A DNA stretch of 39,108 bases, taken from IMG/VR virus record IMGVR_UViG_3300036715_001039, positions 1-39,108 of that record; one strand, written 5' to 3'. The translations under genes and the position numbers were made by a program. Position 1 is the first letter of the stretch, and every line of letters starts with the position of its first letter. Shown here in pieces: positions 3,303-35,290 of this stretch. The stretch is from a virus. The notes under the pieces are model-generated. The model saw only the letters and a program-made list of their open reading frames with translations. It ran no database searches and was not told the DNA's origin.

Positions 3303-4000
3303 ACTTTAAAGAAATACCCATCGTAATCGTCAGTCATAACCGTTTAAGCTGTATGGTGCAGCAGATTGAAGCTCTCACGCAGAGAGGTTATAAAAATCTT
3401 CATATTGCTGACTGCGGTTCTACTTATCCGCCACTACTGGAGTTTCTTCAAGCTTATGGTGGAACAAAGTTTGAAGTTCATTATCTCCCAACAGGCGAGT
3501 CAGGTCCATTGGTGTTTGAGCGCACCCATCTTGGGGCTCTATTCACTGGTAGCTACAATGTGCTGACCGACAACGACGTTATTCCAACCAAGGACTGTCC
3601 TGATAACTTCGTGGAGCACTTCTACAACATCATGCAGGAATACAATACTGACAAGGTGGGGTTTGGCTTGAAATTAGATGACCTTCCTGACCACTATCCG
3701 TTGAAGGCTCAAGTTCTAGTTCACGAAGCGGCATTTTGGAAACAACCTCTCAGGGAGGATGTCTATCGCGCCACCATCGACACAACGTTTGCTCTTAACA
3801 GACCGGGATTTCACGGCGCTTATTCCACCAATTCTATTCGCACTGGCGGATTTTATCAAGCTCATCACTATGGTTGGTATGTTGACTACAACAACCTTCC
3901 AGCCGATGAACTATTCTATCATAAACTTCGTCCACCCGCATCTTCTTGGATAAACTACTGGAACCAAGTCAAACAAAATTATCCCGTAAAACAAGTATGA
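3299..4000 (+). CDS. Glycosyltransferase family 2-like
   Basis: A 233-residue protein. The start IPIVIVSHNRLSCMVQQIEAL is a typical GT2 N-terminus, and NVLTDNDVIPTKDCP near residues 87-100 carries an acidic D-N-D motif in the DxD position. No membrane segment is visible. It is coupled to both neighbours by 4-base overlaps (upstream GT-like gene, downstream nucleotidyltransferase). It is the first gene of an unbroken block running through the nucleotidyltransferase, cupin, RuBisCO-like and GDPD-like genes. Confidence 0.75.
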   Translation: MNFKEIPIVIVSHNRLSCMVQQIEALTQRGYKNLHIADCGSTYPPLLEFLQAYGGTKFEVHYLPTGESGPLVFERTHLGALFTGSYNVLTDNDVIPTKDCPDNFVEHFYNIMQEYNTDKVGFGLKLDDLPDHYPLKAQVLVHEAAFWKQPLREDVYRATIDTTFALNRPGFHGAYSTNSIRTGGFYQAHHYGWYVDYNNLPADELFYHKLRPPASSWINYWNQVKQNYPVKQV

Positions 4001-4713
4001 ATATCGTAATTCCAATGGCCGGGGCCGGCTCACGTTTCGCAGATGCTGGGTATTCTATCCCAAAACCTCTAATTGATATCAACGGGGAGCCAATGATTGT
4101 CAAAGCTGTCAAGTCACTTAACCTGCATGGAAAATACCATTTTGTAATTCGAAAAGATGCATACACATCGAAGTTGAAGAGTGTAATTCACACGATACTT
4201 CCGAACGCCCTGTTTGTCGAAGTTGATTATGTTACATCGGGCCCAGCATCATCGGTTCTGTTGTTCAAAGATAAAATTGACAACGACGATGAATTGGTGG
4301 TTGCGAACTGTGACCAAATTATGTGGTGGAATTCCGACCTGTTTCTTCACAACGCGAGATACAATTCCGGAACAATCGTTACATATTTTTCTGAGACGCC
4401 TAAGAATAGTTACGCTAAGCTAGACCGCTCAGGATATGTTACAGAAGTAAAAGAAAAGAAAGTAATCAGTAACGTATCTTTGAATGGAATTCATTACTGG
4501 AAGCAGGGAAAAGACTTTGTGTATTCTGCAGAAGAAATGATTCGTTTGAAAGACACCGCACCAAACGGAGAATACTACGTGGCCCCAACATACAACTATC
4601 TAATAAATAAAGGATTTTGTATCGGAGTCTATCACATACCAAACGAGCAACATCACGCCGTTGGAACGCCGGAAGACCTGGCAAAATTTGTTGAGTTGGA
4701 AAATTCAAAATGA
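3997..4713 (+). CDS. Sugar/polyol-phosphate nucleotidyltransferase
   Basis: A 238-residue protein. The ATG at 3997 overlaps the upstream TGA and places the signature IPMAGAGSRFADAGYSIPKPL at the N-terminus, matching the G-x-G-S/T-R-F...KP(L/K) pattern of NTP transferases that make NDP-sugars. VVANCDQIMWW near residues 107-117 contains the catalytic metal-binding Asp. Later NGIHYWKQG and EYYVAPTYNYLI fit the family fold. It activates a phosphorylated sugar or polyol with an NTP. Its place beside a cupin and a RuBisCO-like gene suggests the block makes and activates an unusual small precursor. The substrate is unknown. Confidence 0.82.
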   Translation: MNIVIPMAGAGSRFADAGYSIPKPLIDINGEPMIVKAVKSLNLHGKYHFVIRKDAYTSKLKSVIHTILPNALFVEVDYVTSGPASSVLLFKDKIDNDDELVVANCDQIMWWNSDLFLHNARYNSGTIVTYFSETPKNSYAKLDRSGYVTEVKEKKVISNVSLNGIHYWKQGKDFVYSAEEMIRLKDTAPNGEYYVAPTYNYLINKGFCIGVYHIPNEQHHAVGTPEDLAKFVELENSK

Positions 4714-5033
4714 GAGTATTCAAATTAGATGACATGTTTCGTGGTTGGTTCATTGGAAACTTCAATCCGTCCGTGTGGAAAACCGACTATGTTGAAATCG
4801 GTGTTCTCACACACAAAAAAGATGAAAAGTGGCCGAAGCACTATCACAAAGTAGCCATCGAATACAACGTTCTTCTAGAAGGCAGTATGACCGTCTGCGG
4901 AAAACTCTTAACAAAAAATGACATATTCATCATCGACCAAGGTGAAATAGCCGACCCAATTTTTCACGAAGACTGCAAAGTTTTGTGTATCAAATCTCCA
5001 TCCCTACCAAAAGACAAATATGAAGTTGTTTAA
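4710..5033 (+). CDS. Cupin-fold protein
   Basis: A 107-residue single-domain protein. WPKHYHKVAIEYNVLLEGSMTVCG matches cupin motif 1 (H-x-H...E...G), and the following DIFIIDQGEIADPIFHED fits motif 2. His48, His50 and Glu55 are possible metal ligands (counted approximately). Small cupins include sugar isomerases, epimerase-like enzymes and lyases. It overlaps the nucleotidyltransferase by 4 bases and the RuBisCO-like gene by 14, so the three are probably co-translated. The reaction is not predictable from sequence alone. Confidence 0.7.
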   Translation: MRVFKLDDMFRGWFIGNFNPSVWKTDYVEIGVLTHKKDEKWPKHYHKVAIEYNVLLEGSMTVCGKLLTKNDIFIIDQGEIADPIFHEDCKVLCIKSPSLPKDKYEVV

Positions 5034-6225
5034 ACCACTATCAGAAGTAAATCAGAACGATTATGTAATAGCGACGTATCAGCTACGTTCCACCCTCGAT
5101 TCGAATCTAAGAGATGCGGCATGGAATCTGGCCATCGGTCAGAGTGTCGGAAATCCCAACGTTCGTAGTATTCACGAAACAGACGAACTATTTGAAAATC
5201 ACTCTTGCATAATCATATCTGATTTTGTTGAAGATGACCTACGGAAAAAAACTCATGGAGAAATCAAAATTGGATTTCCTGTAGTCAATACGGATTGGGA
5301 AGATGATGGAATTTCTCACCTGCTATGTCAACTGATGGGAGGCCAGATGGACATTGATGTTATTGAGGGATGCCGCTTAATCGGATTGGATATTCCTGAT
5401 AACGTCAAGAAACATTTCAAAGGGCCAAAATACGGCTTCTCAGGAATGAGAGCTTATACAGGCCAATATAACAAGCCCCTATTCGGCGCTATCATCAAAC
5501 CAAAAACGGGAATTTCTCCGAAAATTCTCTTGGAAATGGTGAAGGAATTGGTTGATGGTGGTGTAGACTTCATCAAAGAGGATGAAATTTTATCAAACCC
5601 AGCTGTCTGTTCGTTGAAGGACAGAGTTCCTTTGATTGCCAACTGGCTCAACAACCAAAGTCGTAAGGTTGTATACTGCACATCTATTAATGCCGACCCA
5701 CATGCAATTTTGGATAGAGCCAAGTTTGTGGCGGATTCTGGCGGTAATGGTATTCACTTGAACGTTTGGTGCGGTCTCGGTGCATACAACTCAGTCAGAA
5801 GATTAGACCTTCCATTGTATCTTCACTTCCAGAAGAGTGGTGATAAGGTATTCACCGACAAGTCGCATAGATTTAGTATCGCTTGGGATGTTATGTGTCA
5901 ACTTGCCGGCCTGATGGGTGCGGATACAATCCACTCTGGAATGTGGGGTGGATATATGAGTGAGTCGGAAGAAGATTTGCAAAAGACTTTGAAGGTTCTT
6001 CGTGATGGAAATGTAGTTCCGGCTCTTAGTTGTGGTATGCATGCCGGTCTGATTGAGGGTATTAATAAGCGTTTTGGCGTCGATTACATGGCAAACGTTG
6101 GTGGAGCTATTCACGGACACCCAATGGGAACTGTCGCCGGCGCAAAAGCTATCAGACAATCGATTGATAAGAACTACGGTATGGAATATGGAATTGCTGT
6201 TAACAAGTGGGGAATCAAATCTTGA
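5020..6225 (+). CDS. RuBisCO large-chain homologue, form IV-type (RuBisCO-like protein)
   Basis: A 401-residue protein spanning the N-terminal domain and the alpha/beta barrel. It keeps the barrel motifs IIKPKTGISP (Lys160 and Lys162, matching spinach Lys175 and Lys177) and GVDFIKEDE (Lys186, Asp188, Glu189, matching carbamylated Lys201 and ligands Asp203/Glu204). Also retained are IHSG (His305 = His327), Ser337 (= Ser379) and the GGAIHGHP phosphate loop. By hand alignment Asn123 is Gly108, His294 is Gln271, Arg295 is Lys272 and loop-6 Lys334 is Tyr312. This pattern rules out normal carboxylase activity and fits a form IV RLP, a family with enolase, isomerase and sugar-acid decarboxylase members. 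Neighbours are a cupin, a nucleotidyltransferase and a GDPD-like protein, so a role in making a glycan precursor is inferred. Confidence 0.9.
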   Translation: MKLFKPLSEVNQNDYVIATYQLRSTLDSNLRDAAWNLAIGQSVGNPNVRSIHETDELFENHSCIIISDFVEDDLRKKTHGEIKIGFPVVNTDWEDDGISHLLCQLMGGQMDIDVIEGCRLIGLDIPDNVKKHFKGPKYGFSGMRAYTGQYNKPLFGAIIKPKTGISPKILLEMVKELVDGGVDFIKEDEILSNPAVCSLKDRVPLIANWLNNQSRKVVYCTSINADPHAILDRAKFVADSGGNGIHLNVWCGLGAYNSVRRLDLPLYLHFQKSGDKVFTDKSHRFSIAWDVMCQLAGLMGADTIHSGMWGGYMSESEEDLQKTLKVLRDGNVVPALSCGMHAGLIEGINKRFGVDYMANVGGAIHGHPMGTVAGAKAIRQSIDKNYGMEYGIAVNKWGIKS

Positions 6226-6692
6226 GACTAATTGCTCACAGAGGAATCATCAACGAAAAGTCGTCGGCGATAGAAAATCATCCAGCCACAATTGATTTTG
6301 CTCTTATGCTTGGATATGACGCCGAAATTGATATCAAGTATATTGACAAAAAATGGTGGCTCGGTCACGACGAACCACAATATGAAGTTCCCTATTCTTT
6401 CATATTGAAGAAAGGTCTCTGGTTACATTGCAAAAACATCGAGGCATTATATGAGTTGTCTCAGAGACAAAAGGATAGCACCTATCCGAACTTCTTCTGG
6501 CATCAAAATGACGATTACTGCCTAACAAGTCATGGATATGTCTGGACACACATCAAAACGATGCCACCTTCATTCTCACACAGGTCTGTCGTTATGGTCG
6601 ATGACTATTCAAAGTATGGCTACGACGAACTTATCTGCATGGCCGGTGTCTGCACAAAAAATGCTGAATTTTTCAAAAAGGAAATCAAATGA
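6222..6692 (+). CDS. GDPD/PI-PLC-like TIM-barrel protein, short
   Basis: A 156-residue protein. I chose the TTG at 6222 because it overlaps the RLP stop as TTGA and places LIAHRG directly at the N-terminus. IAHRG(I)...EN..A...LG.DAEIDIK...WWLGHDEP reproduces the glycerophosphodiester phosphodiesterase start: His-Arg, then Glu-x-Asp, then HD. The protein is shorter than typical GDPD enzymes (about 240 residues) and ends after roughly two thirds of the barrel. Such short forms occur in surface-polysaccharide loci. It may act on a phosphodiester-linked substituent made by the upstream block. It overlaps the next gene by 4 bases. Confidence 0.7.
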   Translation: MRLIAHRGIINEKSSAIENHPATIDFALMLGYDAEIDIKYIDKKWWLGHDEPQYEVPYSFILKKGLWLHCKNIEALYELSQRQKDSTYPNFFWHQNDDYCLTSHGYVWTHIKTMPPSFSHRSVVMVDDYSKYGYDELICMAGVCTKNAEFFKKEIK

Positions 6693-7408
6693 AAGTTGCT
6701 GTATGTCTTTCGGGCCATCTCCGCGGTGGAGATAAACTGACTTACCCAAGCCTCAGAAAATTCTTATTAGACAAATATGACTGTGATGTATTCTATTCTT
6801 CTTGGTATGAGAGTGGAGAGAATGTTCAATTTGTCCATCAACAAAACGTTGATTCATCTAAAGAAGACATGAGACAGAGATTGTTCGAAACTTACATGCC
6901 TGTTGATTTTCGTGTTGACTTCGCCGATTCATATTTGGTGACTAGGTTGAAAGAAAGGTGGAACGGAATAACAACGAGGAACGGTTCACAATTATTTCAA
7001 AACAACTTGATGTTCAAAAAAATCTATGATGCTGACCATATCAGAAGAATGTATCAAACCGAAATAGGTCAAAATTACGATGTTGCTATCAGAATGAGAT
7101 TCGACACCGAACTTGTGTGCGATATCATCGAACCCAGCCTAAAAGAAATTTCCGAAGGAAAGCTATTGGTTCGTTCTGGACACTGTGGACTGATTGACCA
7201 GCTTTTCTGGGGAAAGCCCGACGTTGTTTCGGCCGCTGCTGAGTGTTATCTTTATGTTCCGGAGATTGTGAACAGGTCTAACTCCAATCAATTTGAAAAT
7301 GCGGAGAACATATTCGCAAATTATCTTACCGCAAGAGGGATTCCATTTTCTATAAGAGACGATATCAAGTTTGCGTTGACAAAGCCCCACGGAAAGAACA
7401 TAATCTGA
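6689..7408 (+). CDS. Capsule-type glycosyltransferase-like protein
   Basis: A 239-residue protein. MKVAVCLSGHLRGGDK at the N-terminus and YDVAIRMRFDTEL in the middle are typical of a GT-like family found in capsule loci (start KIAVCLSGQxR, middle YDxxIRxRxD). LIDQLFWGKPD further supports this. No membrane segment is seen. It overlaps the GDPD-like gene by 4 bases and is separated by 2 bases from the next gene. Donor and acceptor are unknown. Confidence 0.65.
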   Translation: MKVAVCLSGHLRGGDKLTYPSLRKFLLDKYDCDVFYSSWYESGENVQFVHQQNVDSSKEDMRQRLFETYMPVDFRVDFADSYLVTRLKERWNGITTRNGSQLFQNNLMFKKIYDADHIRRMYQTEIGQNYDVAIRMRFDTELVCDIIEPSLKEISEGKLLVRSGHCGLIDQLFWGKPDVVSAAAECYLYVPEIVNRSNSNQFENAENIFANYLTARGIPFSIRDDIKFALTKPHGKNII

Positions 7409-10086: not shown

Positions 10087-10344
10087 ATGAACACATGGGA
10101 CGAAAAAAATTACATAGAACCAAAGAAGAACTTCTTGAAAAGCAACGGGCTAGAGCCAAAAGATACTATGAAAAACATAGAGTTAGGCTCAACAAAGAGC
10201 ACATGCAGAGGTATTGGAAAAAAACATCCAAAGACAAAAACCCAAAGTAAATTTATAGAAGACTCTATAAAAAAGCACGGAAATCGGTATGATTATTCGA
10301 GAGTTCATTATACAAACTCTCACACAAAGATACAGATTTATTAA
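10087..10344 (+). pseudogene. Remnant of a DUF723-type homing endonuclease in the +1 frame
   Basis: The frame opened by ATG 10087 runs through the MGRK gene in the +1 frame. After the MGRK portion it encodes SKFIEDSIKKHGNRYDYSRV followed by HYTNSHTKIQI, ending TAA at 10342-10344. That segment matches the start of DUF723-type endonuclease repeats (FI.kA...HG.kYDYSkv.Y.N..tkv.I). The rest of the enzyme is absent, cut off at the Pif1-like helicase gene. This is probably the fossil of an endonuclease that once occupied the cassette. Confidence 0.5.
10095..10250 (+). CDS. MGRK-family small basic protein
   Basis: A 51-residue, very basic protein: MGRKKLHRTKEELL, then QRARAKRYYEKH, RLNKEHMQRYW and a Lys-rich tail. 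AGAGG sits 8 bases upstream. Comparison with the copies at 13527 and 15293 shows mostly synonymous changes in this frame (Leu, Arg, Tyr and Asn codons), so this frame is under selection and not the overlapping MNTWDEKNY frame. It may bind DNA or RNA. It resembles the basic segments found at the start of phage homing endonucleases, but no known domain is recognised. A remnant endonuclease follows in the +1 frame. Confidence 0.65.
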   Translation: MGRKKLHRTKEELLEKQRARAKRYYEKHRVRLNKEHMQRYWKKTSKDKNPK

Positions 10345-15284: not shown

Positions 15285-16295
15285 ATGAACACATGGGACG
15301 AAAAAAATTACACAGAACCAAAGAAGAGTTGCTTGAACTCCAACGAGCCAGATCAAAACGATATTATGAGAGACACAAGAAACGACTCAGCGAAGAACAG
15401 ATGCGGCGATACTGGATTCAAAAAAGAGTGGAAAAGAAAATGTCCAAAATGTAAAAAAGATACATTTCATACTACAAAGAGGGTGGCTTTTAGGTCAAGG
15501 GACAAATTGTGTCATAGTTGTGGACTAGAAAAAGGAAACGCCACAAGAATCAAAAATTTTTCAAAAAAGCCTTCTCCAACAAAAGATCAACTTTCGTGGA
15601 AATGTCCGAATTGTTTCAAAGAGATAGTATGTTCCGACATGCATTATAAAAAATATTTGGTTAGAAATAACAAAACATGTAAAGCTTGCACTTGGAAAAA
15701 TAAAATAGGAAATGAAAACTATCTCAAGCGAAAATGCCCCCAGTGCGGAGACGATATTTTATACGCAAACAGAAGAAATCGAACGGTGTGTGTTCGAAGA
15801 AAAACGGTGTGTAAACAATGTCAAAATATAAATTGTTCTAAAAAATTGAAAGGGGTGTCACTGGAAAATCGATTGGGAAAAAATAAAGCAATTAAAATGA
15901 GAAAAAAACAATCGAACTCTTTGAAAGGACTGAGAAAATCCGATGATTGGAAGAAAAAAGCCAGATTTCGTAGATGTGAAATGATCCAGCAGAGTATGGG
16001 AGGTGGACCAGCATACAACATAAAATCCTGTGTATATTTGGATGAACTGTCTAACAAGAGAGGATGGAATTTACAACATGCCAAAAATGGTGGTGAGGTT
16101 GTTGTAGAGGGATATTTTGTAGATGCGTATGATAAAAAAAGAAACATAGTTGTTGAATACGACGAGCCACATCACTACCTCGGAGTAATATTAAAACAAA
16201 AAGACATTGACAGAATGAACAAAATAATACATCATTTAAAATGTAAATTCTACAGATACAATGAAAAAGTTAATAAATTAATAAGATATGAATAA
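15285..16295 (+). CDS. Zinc-ribbon homing endonuclease, Vsr/PD-(D/E)XK-like
   Basis: The frame is open for 336 codons from ATG 15285 and overlaps the whole MGRK gene in the +1 frame. Endonuclease-like sequence starts near residue 45, so an inner start is possible, for example the ATG at codon 28. Three zinc ribbons of CxxC...CxxC type span residues about 53-79, 107-135 and 151-179. The C-terminal domain reads VVVEGYFVDAYD, VVEYDEPHHY and KDIDRMNKIIHHL, the E-D-x-H-D layout of Vsr-like homing nucleases. It lies between two paralogous GT2 genes and its stop overlaps the start of the second by 8 bases. It probably cuts an empty site in related phages to spread the cassette. Confidence 0.75.
   Translation: MNTWDEKNYTEPKKSCLNSNEPDQNDIMRDTRNDSAKNRCGDTGFKKEWKRKCPKCKKDTFHTTKRVAFRSRDKLCHSCGLEKGNATRIKNFSKKPSPTKDQLSWKCPNCFKEIVCSDMHYKKYLVRNNKTCKACTWKNKIGNENYLKRKCPQCGDDILYANRRNRTVCVRRKTVCKQCQNINCSKKLKGVSLENRLGKNKAIKMRKKQSNSLKGLRKSDDWKKKARFRRCEMIQQSMGGGPAYNIKSCVYLDELSNKRGWNLQHAKNGGEVVVEGYFVDAYDKKRNIVVEYDEPHHYLGVILKQKDIDRMNKIIHHLKCKFYRYNEKVNKLIRYE
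15293..15454 (+). CDS. MGRK-family small basic protein
   Basis: A 53-residue paralogue: MGRKKLHRTKEELLELQRAR, SKRYYERHKKRL, EEQMRRYW, then a Lys-rich tail. The start sits 8 bases after GGGG and 8 bases after the competing +1-frame ATG. It is fully nested inside the open endonuclease frame, so this DNA may code for two proteins. Amino-acid conservation with the 10095 and 13527 copies is in this frame. Confidence 0.6.
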   Translation: MGRKKLHRTKEELLELQRARSKRYYERHKKRLSEEQMRRYWIQKRVEKKMSKM

Positions 16296-17538: not shown

Positions 17539-17967
17539 ATGACTAAATCATTGTATCTTCCTATTCACAGTTTCGTCAACCTGATTACCAACAGCTCCAG
17601 CGAAATCTTCGTATGTGCCGATGAGTCAACCGTTGAGGCCGTTAAGGCCGTCATCGACAATCTTCTCAAGGGTGCTGGTTCCGACAAGACCGCTGATGAA
17701 CTTTTCACTTTCACGTTGACTGTTGAGATTGACAATCCTGAGACGTATGAAGAGCGAAAAATTTCTGGTAAGGGATACACGCTTACCGTCGATGTCAATT
17801 CTGCGGAAGGGAAGCAAGCGATTGAAGACTACAGCGGTGACAATCCACAGGAGTCTGGCATCCTTGTAACACCCAAGGACGGCACCAACGAAAACCTCGT
17901 GCTCGCCGCGAAGACCCTCTCCAACCTCACTGGCCTATTTCAAATCGAGGCCAGCTACAACGGTTAA
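17539..17967 (+). CDS. ITNSSSE-motif protein 1
   Basis: A 142-residue protein of unknown function. The N-terminus carries IHSFVNLITNSSSEIFVCAD, shared with the proteins at 17971 and 20166. After it comes a predicted helix (VEAVKAVIDNLLKGAG), then beta-rich sequence. It resembles the N-terminal FVSNSSSSSF-type motif I recall from many uncharacterised bacterial and phage proteins, which may mark a recognition or processing signal. No catalytic residues are evident. It lies 3 bases before its paralogue, so the pair arose by tandem duplication and is co-expressed. Confidence 0.65.
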   Translation: MTKSLYLPIHSFVNLITNSSSEIFVCADESTVEAVKAVIDNLLKGAGSDKTADELFTFTLTVEIDNPETYEERKISGKGYTLTVDVNSAEGKQAIEDYSGDNPQESGILVTPKDGTNENLVLAAKTLSNLTGLFQIEASYNG

Positions 17968-17970
17968 TTT

Positions 17971-18327
17971 ATGAACAAATCTGTTATCCTTCATATCCAC
18001 TCATTTGTGGATGTTATCACAAATTCTTCTTCGGAAGTTTTTGTTTCCGCCTCCGAAAAGACCATCGGTGTCGTCAAGAGCATCATACAGGTATTCTTGA
18101 ATCAAGCCAAAATCACAGAATCAGTTGATGAGCTCTTTGATGTCAAGTTGGTTTATCGTGACTATCGAGACGATGAGGAAGTGGATATAGAGGGAGAAAG
18201 TGAATACAAACCTTCTCGCGTTGTTATCACGCTTAAGGCCACACAACCCTCCACAGACCTCGTCGCTCTCACAGAAGCTTTAAAGAAGCTCAACGGATCT
18301 TTCTCCGCAATTGAGTATATGAACTAA
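17971..18327 (+). CDS. ITNSSSE-motif protein 2
   Basis: A 118-residue paralogue of the preceding gene. It contains IHSFVDVITNSSSEVFVSAS, the same helix (VVKSIIQVFLNQA) and a similar DELFDVKLVY segment, which matches DELFTFTLTV of protein 1. It has a more acidic middle region. Function is unknown; shared architecture suggests a shared partner. It is followed after 1 base by a small unknown gene. Confidence 0.65.
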   Translation: MNKSVILHIHSFVDVITNSSSEVFVSASEKTIGVVKSIIQVFLNQAKITESVDELFDVKLVYRDYRDDEEVDIEGESEYKPSRVVITLKATQPSTDLVALTEALKKLNGSFSAIEYMN

Positions 18328-20165: not shown

Positions 20166-20975
20166 ATGCTACACATTATTCGCCCCCATTCCTTTGTTGA
20201 CCTTATTACAAATTCTTCTTCGGAGTTGTTTGTCTGCAACACTACCAAAAGTGTAGATGCAGTTAAAAAGGTCTTGGTTGAACTTGTCAAGCTGGAGAAC
20301 CAGAAAAATGCTTTGAAGGATACGAAGCACCGCTCTTCCTTTGGTGAAGATGGAGTTTACGGAGAGACAGAGGAATTTGTCTTTACTAACTTTTTTAAGG
20401 AACCGGCGGTTGCAGAATTTTCTTTTATTCAGGAAAACTTTCCAAGATATGAGGAATACATGTCAGCGAACAGCTACTACAATCGTGACTTGGAAGGTAA
20501 ATTTGAAGTTTATCGCATTGCTCACAAAAAAATATGTGAGTGGCAGTTGATAAACAAACAGCCCCAATATAAAAATAACATGACAGATGTTGAGCAGGCT
20601 GCTTACGATGAGTATCATCATCAGTATCGTCTCAATCGGAGAAAATTTTTCAAGGAATGGAATACCTACACCAACCAGCTTGAACTTGACTTCTATCAGT
20701 GGGCTTTTGAAGAGGCTGGACTGAACAAAAATCTGCTTACCGTTGATTTTGAGGATGAGTATCCGCGGGTTCAAATCGCAGATTCCGTTCCAACTAAGGA
20801 TGCTGCTGATACAGCGGAAGAATTCCGTTTTGAAATTGAAATGGCTCTAAGCTATCACTACAATTTCAACAAGGGAGATATTCTTCTTTGGTCACAGTCC
20901 GATAACAGTGTTCCTTATGGCTTATTTGATAGTATCGAATATGTCTTGAACGCTCACCGCATTCACGCGGGATAA
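20166..20975 (+). CDS. ITNSSSE-motif protein 3, long form
   Basis: A 269-residue protein. PHSFVDLITNSSSELFVCNT near the N-terminus, followed by VDAVKKVLVELVKLENQ, matches proteins 1 and 2. The remaining 200 residues are charged, rich in aromatic residues and largely helical, and show no known domain. The motif is therefore an N-terminal module attached to different bodies. It is followed 2 bases later by a methyltransferase gene. Confidence 0.65.
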   Translation: MLHIIRPHSFVDLITNSSSELFVCNTTKSVDAVKKVLVELVKLENQKNALKDTKHRSSFGEDGVYGETEEFVFTNFFKEPAVAEFSFIQENFPRYEEYMSANSYYNRDLEGKFEVYRIAHKKICEWQLINKQPQYKNNMTDVEQAAYDEYHHQYRLNRRKFFKEWNTYTNQLELDFYQWAFEEAGLNKNLLTVDFEDEYPRVQIADSVPTKDAADTAEEFRFEIEMALSYHYNFNKGDILLWSQSDNSVPYGLFDSIEYVLNAHRIHAG

Positions 20976-22298: not shown

Positions 22299-22874
22299 TT
22301 ACTTTCCAGTCGAACCAAAACCACCGCCGCGGTCTTCACCTGGTAAATTATCAACTACCTCGAAGGTGATTCCATTTGTGACTATCGGCAAGAGCTGGCA
22401 AATTTTATCCCCCTTCTTGTATATTTTTGACATATCTGGAAGTCCCTTTATATCTCCGAAACGACTTGCTCTAAGGTCACAAGGTTGCCAAATATACTTA
22501 AACCGAACAAGTATTTGATTTTTGTATCCTCTGTCGATAAGTCCGATGGAATTGGCCAGAACCAAATTATATTTGGAGATACTCGAACGTGGACGTAAAT
22601 CTGTGTGGAAGTTTATTAAGTCAGAGTATCCAGCGTAGGGAGAATATTCTATAGCTTGGGGTGTGGGTGTGACATAAAGATTTGTTTCGAACTCAACATA
22701 GGTTATACTATAATATTCGCCAATTCTCTGATCATCAAAGGTTCCGAAATCAGACTTTGTTCCGACAATAGCGGGTTCGCTTGTGGCAGTTACGTCATAA
22801 CCCGCATCAGTTTCGTTTGCACGATTTGGAACAATTAATCCCTCAACATTCTTTAGATAGTATTTTACGTTCAT
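22299..22874 (-). CDS. dut: dUTPase
   Basis: A 191-residue deoxyuridine triphosphatase. The ATG at 22874 overlaps the upstream TGA (ATGA), so it is preferred over the in-frame ATG at 22892. The trimeric dUTPase motifs are present: ETDAGYDV (1), RPRSSISKY (2), NSIGLIDRGYKNQ (3), GDKICQLLP (4) and RGGGFGSTGK (5). It is longer than the usual 140-150 residues, with extra sequence between motifs 1 and 2. It hydrolyses dUTP to dUMP and keeps uracil out of DNA. It is coupled to the GMP-reductase-like gene. Confidence 0.92.
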   Translation of the reverse strand: MNVKYYLKNVEGLIVPNRANETDAGYDVTATSEPAIVGTKSDFGTFDDQRIGEYYSITYVEFETNLYVTPTPQAIEYSPYAGYSDLINFHTDLRPRSSISKYNLVLANSIGLIDRGYKNQILVRFKYIWQPCDLRASRFGDIKGLPDMSKIYKKGDKICQLLPIVTNGITFEVVDNLPGEDRGGGFGSTGK

Positions 22875-23959
22875 AGTGTTCTTACTCCCCATTCAGAGTT
22901 TAGTAGTGACCCGCCGGCGTATGATATAGCACTTTGTAAGTCTTCCTCAATTTCAGAAAGTTTTTCTTCGCAAGTCCAACGGTCAATAGGAAGTTCAATA
23001 CGAGTTCCTTCGATATGGTGAATACTGTGAGTGTTGTCTTCGGATGCTGAGCCATAGTAAATCTTTGCGATAGGAAATTTTTCATGTCTTCCGCCAAGCA
23101 GTCCATTACTAAAGCCGTCTCCATAAATGGTTTCGGCCGGACTATCCTTGGTAGCAGCGAACAAACCCCCAGCCATGACCATAAGAGCTCCAGCTGCTAT
23201 AGCTTTAGCAATATCTCCATTGGTTCTAATACCACCGTCAGCGATAATTGGAACCATTGTAGGTATAAGCGTATTTTCGGCTTGAGTCTTTTTTCGCCAA
23301 CCCATATTTACCCGAGAGCAGTTTTGAACCGTGGTGAACATTGGAGAACCAAATCCGGTTTTTCCAAACGTAGTGCAAGCTCCTCCTTGAGCAATACCAA
23401 CCTTCACGATGTTAGCTCCCCAGCTAGACAAATCATACACCGCTTCGGAAGTTGACACGTTACCTGCGATGATAGAAGGCCGATACCCAACAGGTCCAGC
23501 GGAACTCCATATGGAAAACTCTGGGCCACTACCAATAATAGCTTTAAATTCTAATTTACGAATAAATTCAAGCATCTCTTTCATACCAATACTATGTCCA
23601 TGTGCGACATCAATGGTGATGAAATCTATCCGATACTCTGCATTGATACATTTACGTAAAAGTTCCTTGTCTGAGTCCTTTATACCAACGCTGATACTAA
23701 TAGTCTTCCATTTTTCAATATTTGCCTGAGATACGAATTTGAAGGTATCCGTGAAACGGTGCATGATATAAAAATAGTCATTATCGCTCATCCATTTGGC
23801 TCTATCGGTATCAATGACGCATTTCATGTTAGCGGGAACAATGGGTAGTTTAAATTTTCTACCCCCCATTTCTATAAGTGTCGATGCTTGATTACGCGAC
23901 TTGAAGGGGGAGAACTTGGGTTTAAGAAAAACCTCTTGATATGAATAAAATTTGTCCAT
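22871..23959 (-). CDS. GMP reductase/IMPDH-family enzyme
   Basis: A 362-residue TIM-barrel protein starting MDKFYSYQEVFLKP; in-frame upstream codons (TTG 23977) are less likely. KVGIAQGGACTTFGKTG holds the catalytic Cys loop (Cys195) and IIADGGIRTNGDIAKAIAAGA is the phosphate-binding signature. AHGHS and AGNVSTSEA also fit. There is no CBS domain, so it looks more like GMP reductase (NADPH-dependent GMP to IMP) than host IMPDH. It could shift purine pools for phage DNA. Inserted sequence near residues 140-165 is unlike E. coli GuaC. Confidence 0.85.
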   Translation of the reverse strand: MDKFYSYQEVFLKPKFSPFKSRNQASTLIEMGGRKFKLPIVPANMKCVIDTDRAKWMSDNDYFYIMHRFTDTFKFVSQANIEKWKTISISVGIKDSDKELLRKCINAEYRIDFITIDVAHGHSIGMKEMLEFIRKLEFKAIIGSGPEFSIWSSAGPVGYRPSIIAGNVSTSEAVYDLSSWGANIVKVGIAQGGACTTFGKTGFGSPMFTTVQNCSRVNMGWRKKTQAENTLIPTMVPIIADGGIRTNGDIAKAIAAGALMVMAGGLFAATKDSPAETIYGDGFSNGLLGGRHEKFPIAKIYYGSASEDNTHSIHHIEGTRIELPIDRWTCEEKLSEIEEDLQSAISYAGGSLLNSEWGVRTL

Positions 23960-23990
23960 TACGACCACTATAAACAACCATCAAAAGATG

Positions 23991-24788
23991 TCAATCTATA
24001 ATAGACTCTCTTTTACGTTTTTCCCAAGAATTTTTTTGAGCAATAGACATGTTTTTACACCATTCTTTTGAGCGTTCTGGTCTTTTCTTTCCTTTCTGGG
24101 TATCCATCATTCTCCCCACTCTCCATTCGCTCAAAACAGATAAATTTTTATCGACCAATTTGTTCTCAACTCCGTTAGTAATCCAACGTTTTCCAAAACT
24201 AGGATTATCTTTTCCAATTCCTTTTTCTTTTCCAGACATTGATAAATTTTTTCTGTGTTCGTTTGAGAATTTGGATCGTTTCTTCCCCTTATGAGAAAGA
24301 GAAATTTTTCTCTTAGTTTCTTCAGAGTGTTTTCTTCCAGTTTGAGTCAGTGACATTTTTCTTCTGTGTTCTACTGTCAATTTTCTTCCTTTATTTGATT
24401 TCCCTGTTTCGGAACATCCGCCCTCTGTTAGATTGTAACCACTGTGAAAGGAGTCGTGGTATTTTATCCAATAAATCTCACGTAAATTCAACGTAACCTC
24501 ATCGATTATTCCGCTTTCAATAATAATTTTATCAAAATTGTCATATCCATACTTTATCAAAGCATTATAAATTTTTGGTTGTCTCTCACATCGCAAACAT
24601 TTATAATCACTCCACCTAGACGGAATATGATTTTTAGTTTTGCCTATATACCACTTTCCATTTATCTTACAACGAAGTCCGTAAATTCCCACCGTCTTTT
24701 TTGGTGTAGTATCGGTTAAGATTTGACTTTCGTTCTCTATCGGCATTTTTCCAATAGCTTCGCATGCGTTGTTCGTTGTGTCTGACAC
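23991..24788 (-). CDS. GIY-YIG homing endonuclease with NUMOD3 repeats
   Basis: A 265-residue protein on the minus strand. GIY at 34-36 and YIG at 47-49, with Arg58, make the nuclease core. The C-terminal part has NUMOD3 DNA-binding repeats (GRKLTVEHRRKMSLTQTGRKH, then similar). The start is GTG 24788, preceded by GGAGG with 9-base spacing, all inside the MGRK gene in the +1 frame. It sits between the GMP-reductase-like gene and a metallopeptidase gene. It probably makes a site-specific break in related genomes that lack it. Confidence 0.85.
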   Translation of the reverse strand: MSDTTNNACEAIGKMPIENESQILTDTTPKKTVGIYGLRCKINGKWYIGKTKNHIPSRWSDYKCLRCERQPKIYNALIKYGYDNFDKIIIESGIIDEVTLNLREIYWIKYHDSFHSGYNLTEGGCSETGKSNKGRKLTVEHRRKMSLTQTGRKHSEETKRKISLSHKGKKRSKFSNEHRKNLSMSGKEKGIGKDNPSFGKRWITNGVENKLVDKNLSVLSEWRVGRMMDTQKGKKRPERSKEWCKNMSIAQKNSWEKRKRESIID

Positions 24789-28175: not shown

Positions 28176-28337
28176 ATGGGAAGAAAACCACTACCACCAA
28201 AGGAACGACATGGACGAAAACTTCAATCAAGAATGCGCAGTTACTGGAAAAATGCCGATAAAGAACGAGCAGGAGGTTTACGACGTTACTACTCCACTCG
28301 TAGGCATCTACGGATTGCAGAACAAGCTCAAACCTGA
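28176..28337 (+). CDS. MGRK-family small basic protein nested with GIY-YIG
   Basis: A 53-residue protein: MGRKPLPPKERHGRKLQSRM, RSYWKNADKERAGGLRRYY, then a short tail. It shares the MGRK start and R-(M)RSYWKNAD with the 24667 protein. Its codons for Lys-Glu-Arg include AAAGGA, which can act as the ribosome-binding site for ATG 28210 of the endonuclease in the +1 frame. Confidence 0.55.
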   Translation: MGRKPLPPKERHGRKLQSRMRSYWKNADKERAGGLRRYYSTRRHLRIAEQAQT

Positions 28338-28732
28338 TAAGTGGTATATCGGTCAAAGTTTGGATATTTACAATAGATGGAAAAACGCATACTTAAAGTT
28401 GAAATGTAAGGCTCAACCAAAAATTTACAACGTAATACGAAAATATGGATATGATGCTTTCAATAAGATAGTGTTGGAGGAATGTCCCAAGGATAAACTG
28501 ATATTGTTGGATAGAGAAAATTATTGGATTTTTCAAAAAAATTCCATTGAGAACGGGTATAATCTGATAAAAGGAAGATGTTCATCTGGAGAAAGAACAC
28601 TCACCGTGAAAGAAAAAATTGGAAAGGCTCAGCTCGGAATAAAAAAATCATCAATTCGGGAAGAAACACAGCGAAGAAACTAAAGAGAAAATGAGATTGT
28701 CTCATCAACGTCGAAGACTTATTACAAGTTGA
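28210..28732 (+). pseudogene. GIY-YIG homing endonuclease, frameshifted in NUMOD3
   Basis: The ORF opens at ATG 28210 and carries GIY (32-34) and YIG (46-48), then DRENYWIFQKN and NGYNLIKGRCS, close to the 24.7 kb enzyme. It ends TAA at 28681 after 157 residues. In the next frame, from about 28658, GKKHSEETKEKMRLSHQ continues the NUMOD3 repeat to TGA at 28730. This means one base was gained or two lost near 28650. The nuclease domain is intact but the DNA-binding repeats are disrupted, so activity or site choice may be altered. Confidence 0.65.
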
Positions 28733-32608: not shown

Positions 32609-32889
32609 GAAATGGAGCCACACCTATTCCAGAACCGACACTTGAAGAAAAGAAGGCTCTTCTAGCTGGTTGGGTTGTCATTGTAGAAAAGGAGTGTGAG
32701 GACATTTTAACGGAGAAAGATAAGAAAATGACAACTTATCTTAATATGAAATCTCGCTACGAAAGATGGTTATCTTCTCGTTTACGTTGGATAACCAAGT
32801 TGGAAAAGAGATTGAACGCCCGAAAAGCTCAATTGAAGGAAATCCAGACCCAATTACAGGCACTGGAAGTTCCTCCACCATCACCGTAA
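32605..32889 (+). CDS. Hypothetical helical protein, 94 residues
   Basis: A 94-residue protein. The middle is a coiled coil ([20 protein letters not shown], then [16 protein letters not shown]) ending in a short Pro-rich tail. No family recognised. It overlaps the HNH-like gene by 4 bases. Its last 124 bases also lie within the longest reading of the LamG gene in another frame. Confidence 0.55.
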
Positions 32890-32948
32890 ACGTTGGTTGG
32901 GGTATATTTATTGGGGTGAGAATAGATCCCCTAACCCTATTGATAGAA

Positions 32949-34031
32949 ATGGATGATAACAATCCAGAAAACGTCATCAGTGCCCCATCAGGAAGTTATC
33001 TATATCGAAACGGAAACGTCTTTTCAATCCGTAGACCTAACTCCGCTGCGTTAGAAACGATTGAAGTATCTAAGAAGGCTCTCTCATATCGATACTCCAA
33101 TCAGACTTGGTGGCCGAAGGTCGAAGAGTTTCGCATCTCATATGTTCACACTTATGAGGTCTGGTATAAGAATTCAGGTAGCGGAAATATTGGATGGTCA
33201 TTTAGCAGTTTTGACCAACCATACAATGTTTGGTTTGGTCCAGCTGTCCCAACCCCTACACCAACTCCGACGCCAACGCCAACTCCTACCCCAACGATTA
33301 CACCCACCCCAGCACCTACAGCTACGCCAACACCAATTCCTCCTACAGCTACGCCTACCCCAACACCTACCCCAACGCCGGCACCTACATCGACTCCGAC
33401 TCCGACGCCAACTCCTACACCTTCTCTAGCAGCTTGGTGGAAATTGAACGAAGGATCTGGAATCAATATAGCAGACTCATCCGGAAACGGATTTACCGGT
33501 GTTGCAACAGGCTCACCAAGTTGGGTGACTGGACACAGTGGATCGGTTTCAGCCGTTCAGTTTAATGGTTCCACTCAATTCTTAGAAGGAAATACAAACG
33601 ACACAGCTTTGGCTCTTTCTACGAACATGTCTTTCACCGCTTGGATTAAGACAGCCGGCTCAGGTGACCAAGCTATTCTTGCTCGTGTTGATAATGCCGA
33701 TCGTGGGTATATTTTTGGTATGACAGGTGGAAAACTAAGACTCTTTGCGACAGCCTATTCCAATTCAAACACATTCATAAATGATAATACTTGGAAATTC
33801 GTAGCAGCAACGGTGTCCGTTGGGGCAACAAAGTTCTTCGTGAATGGTTCATTGACTGACACAACCGCGGGCCACACTACATCTGGAACAGGTTCATTCA
33901 AGTGGAGAATAGGCGCAATCAATTATAATAACGTTTCTCAGCAATTCTCTGGTTCAATTCAAGATGTCAGACTTTACAATCAACTTTTGACAGACCAACA
34001 GATTGAAAATGTTTATAGCAGCTCTCTTTAA
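32949..34031 (+). CDS. Pro-Thr-repeat and LamG-domain protein
   Basis: The frame is open from ATG 32766 (421 residues), but that start lies inside the 32605 gene; ATG 32949 gives 360 residues and avoids most of the overlap. An N-terminal beta-rich part is followed by a TPTP-type linker and then a concanavalin A-like LamG_3 domain ([10 protein letters not shown], NFxG-type [24 protein letters not shown]...). The C-terminal [21 protein letters not shown] is a standard LamG end. It is probably a fibre or head-decoration protein that binds glycans at the cell surface. Confidence 0.72.
33249..33422 (+). repeat. Proline-threonine codon repeat
   Basis: 58 codons, mostly alternating CCN and ACN (Pro-Thr), with a few Ala, Ile and Ser. 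This kind of tract forms a stiff linker between fibre domains and can change length by slippage during replication. It does not have the spacing of a CRISPR array. Confidence 0.85.
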
Positions 34032-34257: not shown

Positions 34258-34700
34258 TTACCACAGACCCTACCCATCCAGACCTTGGAAAACCCGATTC
34301 AACTGGCATGAATAAAGCTTACCTTGTTCTTTCCGAAGAAGAAAGAAGTAAAGGTTTTGTTCGTCCTCTTCACCAAGCTTATGTCCACGTTGGAACAAAA
34401 CCAAAATATCCTTTGCGTGATTTGACCAGCGAAGAAAAAGTTAGATACTCTTCTTCAAATTACTCTAAGTTTGAGTCTTATCCAGAAGAAAATTCTCCTG
34501 TGTTGGGTAAATATTGGACACAATCGGAGTTAAACCGTATCACTGGTTGCGGAACTAAAACGACAATGGGTTTAGCTCTCTGTGAAACATACGCACGAAA
34601 TCCCAAGTTTTATGGACTTACTTTTTGTTGTGGTTGTGGATCTCATTTCCCGGTTTCTGATTTTGTCTGGGACGGAACAAGTGACCTTGTAGGGTCATAA
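34254..34700 (+). CDS. Conserved phage-type CxxC protein, 148 residues
   Basis: From ATG 34254. The C-terminal part GCGTKTTMGLALCETYARNP and FCCGCGSHFPVSDFVWDG looks like a zinc-binding module that I recall in many phage and prophage proteins of unknown function. Several cysteines (about residues 98, 110, 124-127) may bind metal. It shares its last base with the ATG of the Mom-like gene (TAATG). Confidence 0.55.
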   Translation: MITTDPTHPDLGKPDSTGMNKAYLVLSEEERSKGFVRPLHQAYVHVGTKPKYPLRDLTSEEKVRYSSSNYSKFESYPEENSPVLGKYWTQSELNRITGCGTKTTMGLALCETYARNPKFYGLTFCCGCGSHFPVSDFVWDGTSDLVGS

Positions 34701-35290
34701 TGCATCCGAAAATTAAATCATTTCGGATAGAAGTGTGTCCGCGAAAAGACATTAAAGATTTCGTGGAGAAATGGCACTATAGTAAGAGTATCAACGGAGT
34801 AAAATCTCAGTATTGCTTTAAACTTCTAAGTGGAGATGAACTTATTGGTGCCGCTGTATTTGGAGAACCAGCGACCAAAGGAATTGATACCCATTACATA
34901 AAAGACCGAGAAAGGGCTGTAGTGGAACTTAGACGGTTGTGTTGTATTGACATGACTCCAAAGAATACTGAGAGTTACTTCATCGGATATTGTCTTCGTT
35001 GGTTGAAGCAGAACACCGCCTACAGTCTCGTGGTAAGCTATTCAGACCTAACTTATGGCCACGAAGGAACTATCTATAAGGCTTCCAATTTTTCATACCG
35101 TGGACAAATAAAGCCTCAGAAGTTGATTGAACTAAATGGGAGACTCTATCATGATCGTTCTCTCAGAGTTAAGCACAATGGTAAATTGAAACCGTTTGCA
35201 CAAAAACTTGTCGATGCTATGAACAACGGAAATGCCAAGATTGTTATGAGTAAATGCAAAAACATCTACACCTACGTTCTCAAACCATGA
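34700..35290 (+). CDS. Mom-like DNA-modification acyltransferase
   Basis: A 196-residue GNAT-like protein. WHYSKSINGVKSQYCFKLLS, then ELIGAAVFGEPAT and VELRRLCCIDMT correspond to the Mu Mom pattern (H-Y-S..., G-V-V-L-F-G, E-L-x-R-x). LVVSYSDLTYGHEGTIYKAS matches the LVVSFADxxxGHxGxIYQA segment, the best signature of the family. Mom adds a carbamoylmethyl group to adenine N6 in DNA and protects phage DNA from restriction enzymes. Start is TAATG-coupled to the upstream gene and the stop overlaps the next ATG. Confidence 0.85.
   Translation: MHPKIKSFRIEVCPRKDIKDFVEKWHYSKSINGVKSQYCFKLLSGDELIGAAVFGEPATKGIDTHYIKDRERAVVELRRLCCIDMTPKNTESYFIGYCLRWLKQNTAYSLVVSYSDLTYGHEGTIYKASNFSYRGQIKPQKLIELNGRLYHDRSLRVKHNGKLKPFAQKLVDAMNNGNAKIVMSKCKNIYTYVLKP

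Follow-up and report, generated by a model that had tools for sequence, protein, structure and literature searches.

The gene at positions 5,020–6,225 of the window, which is the complete IMG/VR record of 39,108 bases, encodes on the plus strand a RuBisCO-like protein (RLP) of 401 amino acids, with an ATG start, that is a member of a new deep form IV clade. We consider it rather probable that this lineage, whose members predominate among the RuBisCO relatives of uncultured tailed phages, was recruited to nucleotide-sugar biosynthesis, where it would act as a sugar-phosphate isomerase or in place of a mutase and alter surface glycans. We know of no earlier anabolic, glycan-making role of a RuBisCO relative, and this RLP would be the first if the reading is true.

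The product is a full-length RuBisCO homologue (Pfam RuBisCO_large PF00016, E-value 4.8e-40), as the first-pass annotation of this DNA had proposed from the letters alone. The same annotation had suggested a structural model as a check, and AlphaFold2, run with 20 viral relatives, gives a confident RuBisCO fold (mean pLDDT 90.3, pTM 0.89) nearest to form III: the best PDB matches in Foldseek are the archaeal form III RuBisCOs 8dht, 2d69, and 3a12 (E-values of 1e-31 to 1e-30, query-normalised TM-scores of 0.87-0.88, 24-25% identity). The single sequence, for its part, has as its best PDB match 4nas, a 2,3-diketo-5-methylthiopentyl-1-phosphate enolase (MtnW). The homology in fold and sequence (Foldseek E-value 2.8e-31, TM-score 0.88), together with the Mg-carbamate triad, places the protein in the RuBisCO superfamily; since it lies outside forms I-III and its catalytic residues are replaced, it belongs to form IV.

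The active-site residues were compared in an alignment of 82 sequences, in which the family is represented by 22 viral and 21 cellular rows. The carbamylated Lys201 and the Mg ligands Asp203 and Glu204 of RuBisCO correspond to Lys186, Asp188, and Glu189 (Lys186-Glu-Asp188-Glu189, positions 5,575–5,586 on the plus strand, as for all features below), which are invariant in the alignment, so that the metal site recognised in the first pass is indeed kept. Lys175, the proton-abstracting base, and Lys177 are likewise retained in the segment Lys160-Pro-Lys162 (5,497–5,505), as are Ser379, Gly381, and Gly403 (Ser337, Gly339, and Gly362). Lys175, Lys177, Lys201, Asp203, and Glu204 are the residues that RuBisCO uses for substrate enolisation. 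In contrast, Asn123 is replaced by Gly108 (5,341–5,343), His294 and Arg295 by Gln271 and Lys272 (5,830–5,835), and the loop-6 residue Lys334 by Tyr312 (5,953–5,955); these four replacements, which had been aligned by hand, are all correct, and Glu60, Thr65, and Gly404 are replaced as well (Gly40, Asn45, and Ala363). The equivalents of Gly108, Gln271, and Tyr312 are invariant in all 43 family rows, while position 272 is Lys in 36 of them, Ser in 6, and Arg in 1. In RuBisCO, Arg295 contributes to the second phosphate site, both the gaseous substrate and the carboxylated intermediate are stabilised by Lys334 and Asn123, and His294 serves later steps. Of the groups in this comparison, forms I-III and the RLP family alone retain Lys177, whereas the rows of MtnW, OiaX, OiaX-like proteins, and Chlorobi-type RLPs have lost it. 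Although the RLP resembles form III in its fold, the Mg-carbamate triad, Lys175, Lys177, and most of the first phosphate site, it differs from it by its low identity, by all of the replacements above, and by its separate clade. The dN/dS between the RLP gene and its counterpart in a viral relative (L003; protein 94% identical, DNA 83%) is 0.018, and this strong purifying selection indicates a working gene rather than a decayed copy.

In our reconstruction of 82 proteins (IQ-TREE, LG+C20+F+G4), in which some rows are long-branched and the root is a drawing device, the viral and the 21 cellular sequences form one group with a support of 100/100. This group is separate from forms I, II, and III, MtnW, OiaX (3-oxo-isoapionate-4-phosphate decarboxylase) and its relatives, and the Chlorobi-type RLPs, the latter recognised by phylum and length only; we claim this separateness and draw no conclusion on how the superfamily branched. 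The family profile draws the same border, since members score at least 300 bits and all other RuBisCO relatives at most 160. None of the NCBIfam models for form III, form I/general, MtnW, OiaX, and form II is matched at its cut-off, and the gaps are wide: the RLP obtains 177 bits against the form III model (cut-off 497), 157 (PRK09549) and 122 bits against the MtnW models (cut-offs 409 and 513.6), and 148 bits against the OiaX model (cut-off 700). The protein is hence rejected as a member of MtnW and of OiaX on cut-offs and tree, as a Chlorobi-type member on the tree, and as a member of forms I-III because its clade lies outside them and the positions of Asn123, His294, Arg295, and Lys334 carry Gly, Gln, Lys or Ser, and Tyr. 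The replaced catalytic residues suggest that the RLP lacks carboxylase activity, in line with the first-pass opinion that it would not be a standard carboxylating RuBisCO.

The family is present in at least 302 IMG/VR viral stretches, a lower bound obtained by scanning 2.9 million viral contigs for two conserved motifs. A mixed-motif scan of the viral contigs for other RuBisCO and RLP groups retrieved a single relative, itself a member of the RLP clade, and a one-sequence scan for form I gave no match; the mixed-motif scan being limited by its motifs, other forms are to be taken as rare rather than shown absent. No member was found in the 50,697 phage records of INPHARED, PHROGs has no family for the RLP, and the BFVD viral structure library yielded no RuBisCO fold (best TM-scores of 0.36 to 0.39). 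The earlier impression that such proteins are seldom described in phages consequently holds for isolates but not for uncultured viruses, given the 302 stretches and the viral rbcL genes already listed in the literature. A T4-type major capsid protein is encoded in 8 of 30 RLP-bearing viral records and a terminase above the curated cut-off in 11 of 31, indicating that these are tailed phages. The window itself, in which no terminase was found, may be a fragment, and so may the record of an 80 kb relative, in which neither a terminase nor gp23 was found. In cells, the distribution of the family is sporadic (SAR11, Legionella, Azospirillum, Elusimicrobia, and DPANN). The scan of cellular genome contigs recovered 24 loci, including one distant relative, L106, that falls outside the family, and only the seed genome was positive among the sampled Pseudomonadota (1/398), Alphaproteobacteria (1/385), and Bacteroidota (1/296). 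Some of the cellular loci may be viral, and one of them (L104) looks phage-like by its gene content. Plasmids hold distant members only (two matches at 31% identity).

The genomic context of the RLP in the window is that of sugar-related genes. On its upstream side are a family 2 glycosyltransferase (GT2; 421–1,119; PF00535, 2.1e-14), an FkbM-type methyltransferase (1,116–1,823; PF05050, 2.1e-5), a probable methyltransferase (1,820–2,422; Methyltransf_24, below the cut-off), and a putative glycosyltransferase-like protein without family match, common only to the window and L003 (3,299–4,000). They are followed by a nucleotidyltransferase (NTase) of the sugar-phosphate nucleotidylyltransferase fold, with an ATG at 3,997 (3,997–4,713; PF12804, 1e-7; PDB 4evw, 9e-34), and by a small single-domain cupin with the motif H44-x-H46-x4-E51-x6-G58 (4,710–5,033). 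Downstream of the RLP are a short GDPD-like gene (6,207–6,692) and a gene for a protein of unknown type (6,689–7,408); recurrent neighbours that resemble it match DUF7796 weakly. The overlaps are of 4 bases between NTase and cupin, 14 between cupin and RLP, and 19 between RLP and the GDPD-like gene. The cupin and the GDPD-like protein are weak as single sequences and backed by their family profiles, and a relative of the cupin in phage SynMITS9220M01 matches Cupin_2. The GDPD-like protein, of about 150 amino acids and alone without a Pfam match, does not contain a full-length GDPD domain; its profile matches the GDPD 7e0v (8.9e-6) and covers only the first ~50 residues of solved GDPDs. Nevertheless, the HRG, ExD, GHD, and HxK motifs are invariant or nearly so in 21 sequences and are kept in the window as H11-R-G, E40-x-D42, G53-H-D55, and H74-x-K76. 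The gene run read in the first pass is thus borne out directly for GT2 and NTase and through family profiles for the cupin and the GDPD-like gene, whereas its downstream glycosyltransferase is not supported, as no glycosyltransferase match above the cut-off was found for the product of 6,689–7,408.

This cassette is widely conserved. Within 6 kb of the RLP, the NTase occurs in 66 of 72 non-redundant loci, the GDPD-like gene in 54, and the cupin in 41, the next commonest neighbours being NAD-dependent epimerases (27/72), DUF7796-like proteins (25), GT17-type proteins (25), and FkbM methyltransferases (13). Within 5 kb, NTase, cupin, and GDPD-like genes are found in 97, 66, and 85 of 104 loci, respectively. 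The co-occurrence with sugar genes, on which the first-pass reading depended, is in this way strongly conserved in related genomes. The genes usually follow one another as NTase-cupin-RLP-GDPD, an arrangement kept exactly in 25 of the 48 non-redundant loci from viruses, and the coding frame preceding the RLP mostly runs into it or lies within a few bases. The linkage is retained in cellular loci at about 40-50% identity, with the order GDPD-RLP-cupin-NTase in Elusimicrobia and Azospirillum, GDPD-NTase-RLP-NTase in SAR11, and a bare RLP-NTase pair in Legionella. Reciprocally, searching with the cupin recovered the RLP in 70 of the best 80 viral loci. No Calvin-cycle, uronate/sugar-acid, or heptose genes recur beside the RLP in the 72 non-redundant loci. 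LicD, which adjoins the RLP in all 4 RLP-bearing Legionella genomes and is itself present in 13 of 22 genomes of that genus, was also considered as a general partner; this is at most a local association, as no viral RLP record tested has LicD.

In cassettes free of RLP, other enzymes are found in its slot. A phosphomannomutase-family HAD gene (PF03332, 1.5e-18) lies exactly between cupin and GDPD in 8 of 10 RLP-free cupin loci. Seven GDPD loci encode a fusion of the NTase with RpiB (PF02502, 3.5e-29), with cupin and GDPD following in most, and also contain a PfkB-type kinase (6/7) and a KdsC-like phosphatase (7/7). RpiB belongs to the ribose-5-phosphate/galactose-6-phosphate isomerase family. 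In a comparison of 264 loci, none of these genes was found in the 178 RLP loci, versus 7 (RpiB), 12 (phosphomannomutase family), 6 (PfkB), and 7 (KdsC) of the 86 RLP-free loci. Of all arrangements in the GDPD-like loci examined, the commonest is a HAD_2-NTase fusion with GDPD and with neither cupin nor RLP. The loci come from ranked searches in which some contigs recur, and neither these fractions nor those given above are population frequencies. The Synechococcus phages Bellamy, SynMITS9220M01, S-CAM9, S-SM2, and B23 carry NTase and GDPD-like genes homologous to those of the RLP cassette, and two of them the cupin, but they have no RLP and present instead either the RpiB fusion with kinase and phosphatase, found in the isolates Bellamy and SynMITS9220M01, or a HAD fusion. 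Heptose synthesis as in cyanophages was discarded as a model, since the S-SM2 "phosphoheptose isomerase" beside the GDPD-like gene is HAD_PNKP in Pfam and not an isomerase. From the slot swapping, the RLP therefore appears to be one of several interchangeable enzymes preparing a phosphorylated sugar for a common NTase. The swap partners favour isomerisation over decarboxylation; of the two conversions imagined in the first pass for supplying the NTase, the rearrangement of a sugar-type phosphate thereby gains plausibility, while the decarboxylation option would be the less favoured.

Our best explanation, to which we give an even chance, is that this phage enzyme isomerises (or epimerises) a sugar phosphate as part of a short pathway towards a nucleotide sugar. 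As the enolisation residues are invariant and those of carboxylation and of the second phosphate site are replaced family-wide, we infer an isomerase or epimerase that works on a monophosphate. Mg2+ and a keto-sugar monophosphate would be bound by the carbamylated Lys186 together with Asp188 and Glu189, and Lys160 would take the proton beside the carbonyl to give an enediolate, like in the first step of RuBisCO. Because His294, Arg295, Lys334, and Asn123 are lost, this enediolate would not be carboxylated but re-protonated elsewhere, so that the carbonyl is shifted or a centre inverted. The product would then pass to the neighbouring NTase and the activated sugar to the glycosyltransferases, and the end effect would be an altered surface glycan of the host or the virion. 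The operon-like NTase linkage persisting in cells argues for this pathway, as does the presence of RpiB, a sugar-phosphate isomerase, among the swap partners absent from RLP loci. Two precedents make it chemically plausible. The Deep-Ykr RLP of Rhodospirillum rubrum, a non-carboxylating 5-methylthioribulose-1-phosphate isomerase, acts on a ketose monophosphate as proposed for the phage RLP and works with a cupin-type sulfurylase (PMC4958253). In addition, NTases can directly activate a ketose phosphate, as a cytidylyltransferase converts open-chain fructose-6-phosphate to CDP-6-fructose (PMC10918830), and a two-enzyme pathway, as in Legionella, is therefore chemically reasonable.

Several observations temper this explanation, which rests on sequence and context. 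The Deep-Ykr RLP belongs to a sulfur salvage context and is not among the sequences of our tree, making its likeness to the phage RLP functional and not phylogenetic. The phage cupin, unlike the Deep-Ykr partner, is also found with RpiB or the phosphomannomutase-family gene replacing the RLP; it need not act on the RLP product, and the idea that it is a methylsulfurylase as in R. rubrum is weakened. The phosphomannomutase-family slot partner is not an isomerase, and the slot may therefore only mean the supply of an NTase substrate. Furthermore, RpiB in 7 of 86 loci is a modest count from related viral loci, the HAD_2-type domain common in RLP-free cassettes also occurs in nine RLP loci, and an isomerase role does not account for the GDPD-like gene.

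The slot shared with the phosphomannomutase-family gene would be explained if the RLP performed a 1,3-type carbonyl shift along a ketose phosphate, turning a ketose 5- or 6-phosphate into what is effectively a ketose 1-phosphate and thus doing the job of a phosphomutase without moving the phosphate. The R. rubrum RLP, which converts 5-methylthioribulose-1-phosphate to 1-methylthioxylulose-5-phosphate (PMC4958253), gives the chemical model, and the lack of PfkB kinase and KdsC phosphatase in RLP loci would fit. Nevertheless, this is a special case of the isomerase explanation and its likeness to the R. rubrum enzyme is one of function, and we consider it possible but unlikely. The Mg-carbamate site and Lys175 are also common to MtnW (4nas, 2oek, and 3fk4), whose PRK09549 model gives the 157 bits mentioned above, so that an MtnW-like enolase/tautomerase or dehydration-linked enzyme, whose product would be a deoxy or diketo sugar phosphate on the way to a rare deoxysugar, may be imagined. 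This seems doubtful to us, as the score is far under the MtnW cut-offs, the clades are separate, Lys177 and position 294 differ, methionine-salvage genes do not recur near the RLP, and the genes that replace the RLP encode an isomerase and a phosphomutase-family protein. OiaX offers another example of a RuBisCO-family protein in sugar metabolism, as proposed here, and has a Gly at the Asn123 position too; an OiaX-like decarboxylase of a 3-keto sugar-acid phosphate, yielding a shortened or branched sugar phosphate, would agree with the 148-bit match. However, OiaX is catabolic, retains His294, Arg295, and Lys334 without Lys177, and forms a separate clade, its 700-bit cut-off is not neared, and the cassettes have no recurrent uronate or sugar-acid gene, which makes such a decarboxylase improbable. 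A role as scaffold or regulator of the NTase, with no catalysis, would suit a protein for which no activity is known and which the NTase nearly always adjoins, but it is very improbable considering that the Mg and base residues are all invariant in 43 diverse rows and that the dN/dS is so low.

The same holds even more strongly for the idea of an auxiliary metabolic gene of carbon fixation that encodes a true CO2-fixing RuBisCO, although automated annotation would indeed call this gene rbcL from its Pfam match. Viral rbcL genes have been listed as carbon-fixation genes in Great Salt Lake (PMC8506154) and in mine soils, where carboxylation was reported for one of them (PMC12615777). In the landfill study, in the portions considered here, viral "RbcL" clusters with RbcL-like proteins, occurs also among random IMG/VR viruses, and is listed as a carbon-fixation auxiliary gene, and those portions describe neither a cassette nor a family (PMC12607003). 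Against carbon fixation by the present family stand the family-wide replacement of Asn123, His294, Arg295, Lys334, Glu60, Thr65, and Gly404, the position outside forms I-III with a score of at most half the form III cut-off, and a glycan-synthesis context with no Calvin-cycle gene among the recurrent neighbours; this possibility is scarcely credible. The Global Ocean Sampling survey of 2007 reported 65 RuBisCO homologues of marine origin that fit none of the known forms, variable at Asn123, His327, and Gly404, which were not recognised as viral and were given without gene context or function (PMC1821046), and these unplaced homologues may include the RLP clade. In the open-licence literature, we found no description of this RLP family, of its cassette, or of a glycan role for an RLP, and viral RuBisCO by name had no match.

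If the sugar-phosphate isomerase reading is true, some or more of the viral "rbcL" genes published as carbon-fixation genes would have another function. Claims of viral carbon fixation resting on an automated rbcL label need to be checked against the RLP residue pattern. Because the RLP is common in uncultured T4-type phages and absent from the isolate collection searched, isolate-based resources miss it. RuBisCO-like proteins show the origin and diversification of RuBisCO chemistry and few have known functions; to these, the present clade adds a deep lineage that keeps the enolisation machinery, including Lys177, and is tied to a specific and testable pathway. Finally, the control that phages exert over the surface sugars of their hosts is relevant to superinfection and host range in SAR11 and other major marine bacteria.

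Elsewhere in the window, two plus-strand ORFs (10087-10344 and 15285-16295), whose N-termini are almost identical (MNTWDEKNYxEPKK), look like mobile endonuclease genes, the second also containing zinc-ribbon-like cysteines. Two mutually related genes (23991-24788 on the minus strand and 28210-28683 on the plus strand) are GIY-YIG-like homing endonuclease candidates, and a Mom-like DNA modification protein (phrog_1384, 2.1e-57) is encoded at 34700-35290 (plus strand). On the minus strand, a dUTPase-like gene (22299-22892) overlaps a gene (22871-23977) matching GMP reductase at 261 bits, below the cut-off of 344 bits.

Other plus-strand genes include three paralogues (17539-17967, 17971-18327, and 20166-20975) with a common N-terminal motif resembling HSFVDxITNSSSExFV, the C-terminal part of a GroEL chaperonin truncated at the record end (1-414), and a putative virion protein (32766-34031) that contains an extended Thr-Pro repeat and whose C-terminal region matches phrog_8510 (virion structural protein).

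Genes of the short GDPD-like family are highly abundant among viruses (at least 589 stretches), and their most frequent companion, among the matches listed (L334-L413), is a HAD_2-nucleotidyltransferase fusion. Some cyanophage cassette genes are mislabelled in GenBank: the nucleotidyltransferase-RpiB fusions of SynMITS9220M01 and Bellamy as "phosphatase", and the HAD_PNKP-like protein of S-SM2 as "phosphoheptose isomerase" (7835-8992 in L414, 7835-8992 in L415, and 6693-7004 in L416, loci of isolated Synechococcus phages).

In the SAR11 loci encoding the RuBisCO-like protein (RLP; L090-L097), the position of the cupin upstream of the RLP is held by a second, divergent nucleotidyltransferase, for which a Pfam search with the L093 copy gave no match. 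In all four Legionella genomes with an RLP, a divergently oriented LicD gene adjoins the RLP-nucleotidyltransferase pair (upstream of the RLP; L101-L103). Because the donors used by LicD are CDP-activated, this proximity hints that the Legionella loci make a CDP-linked product.
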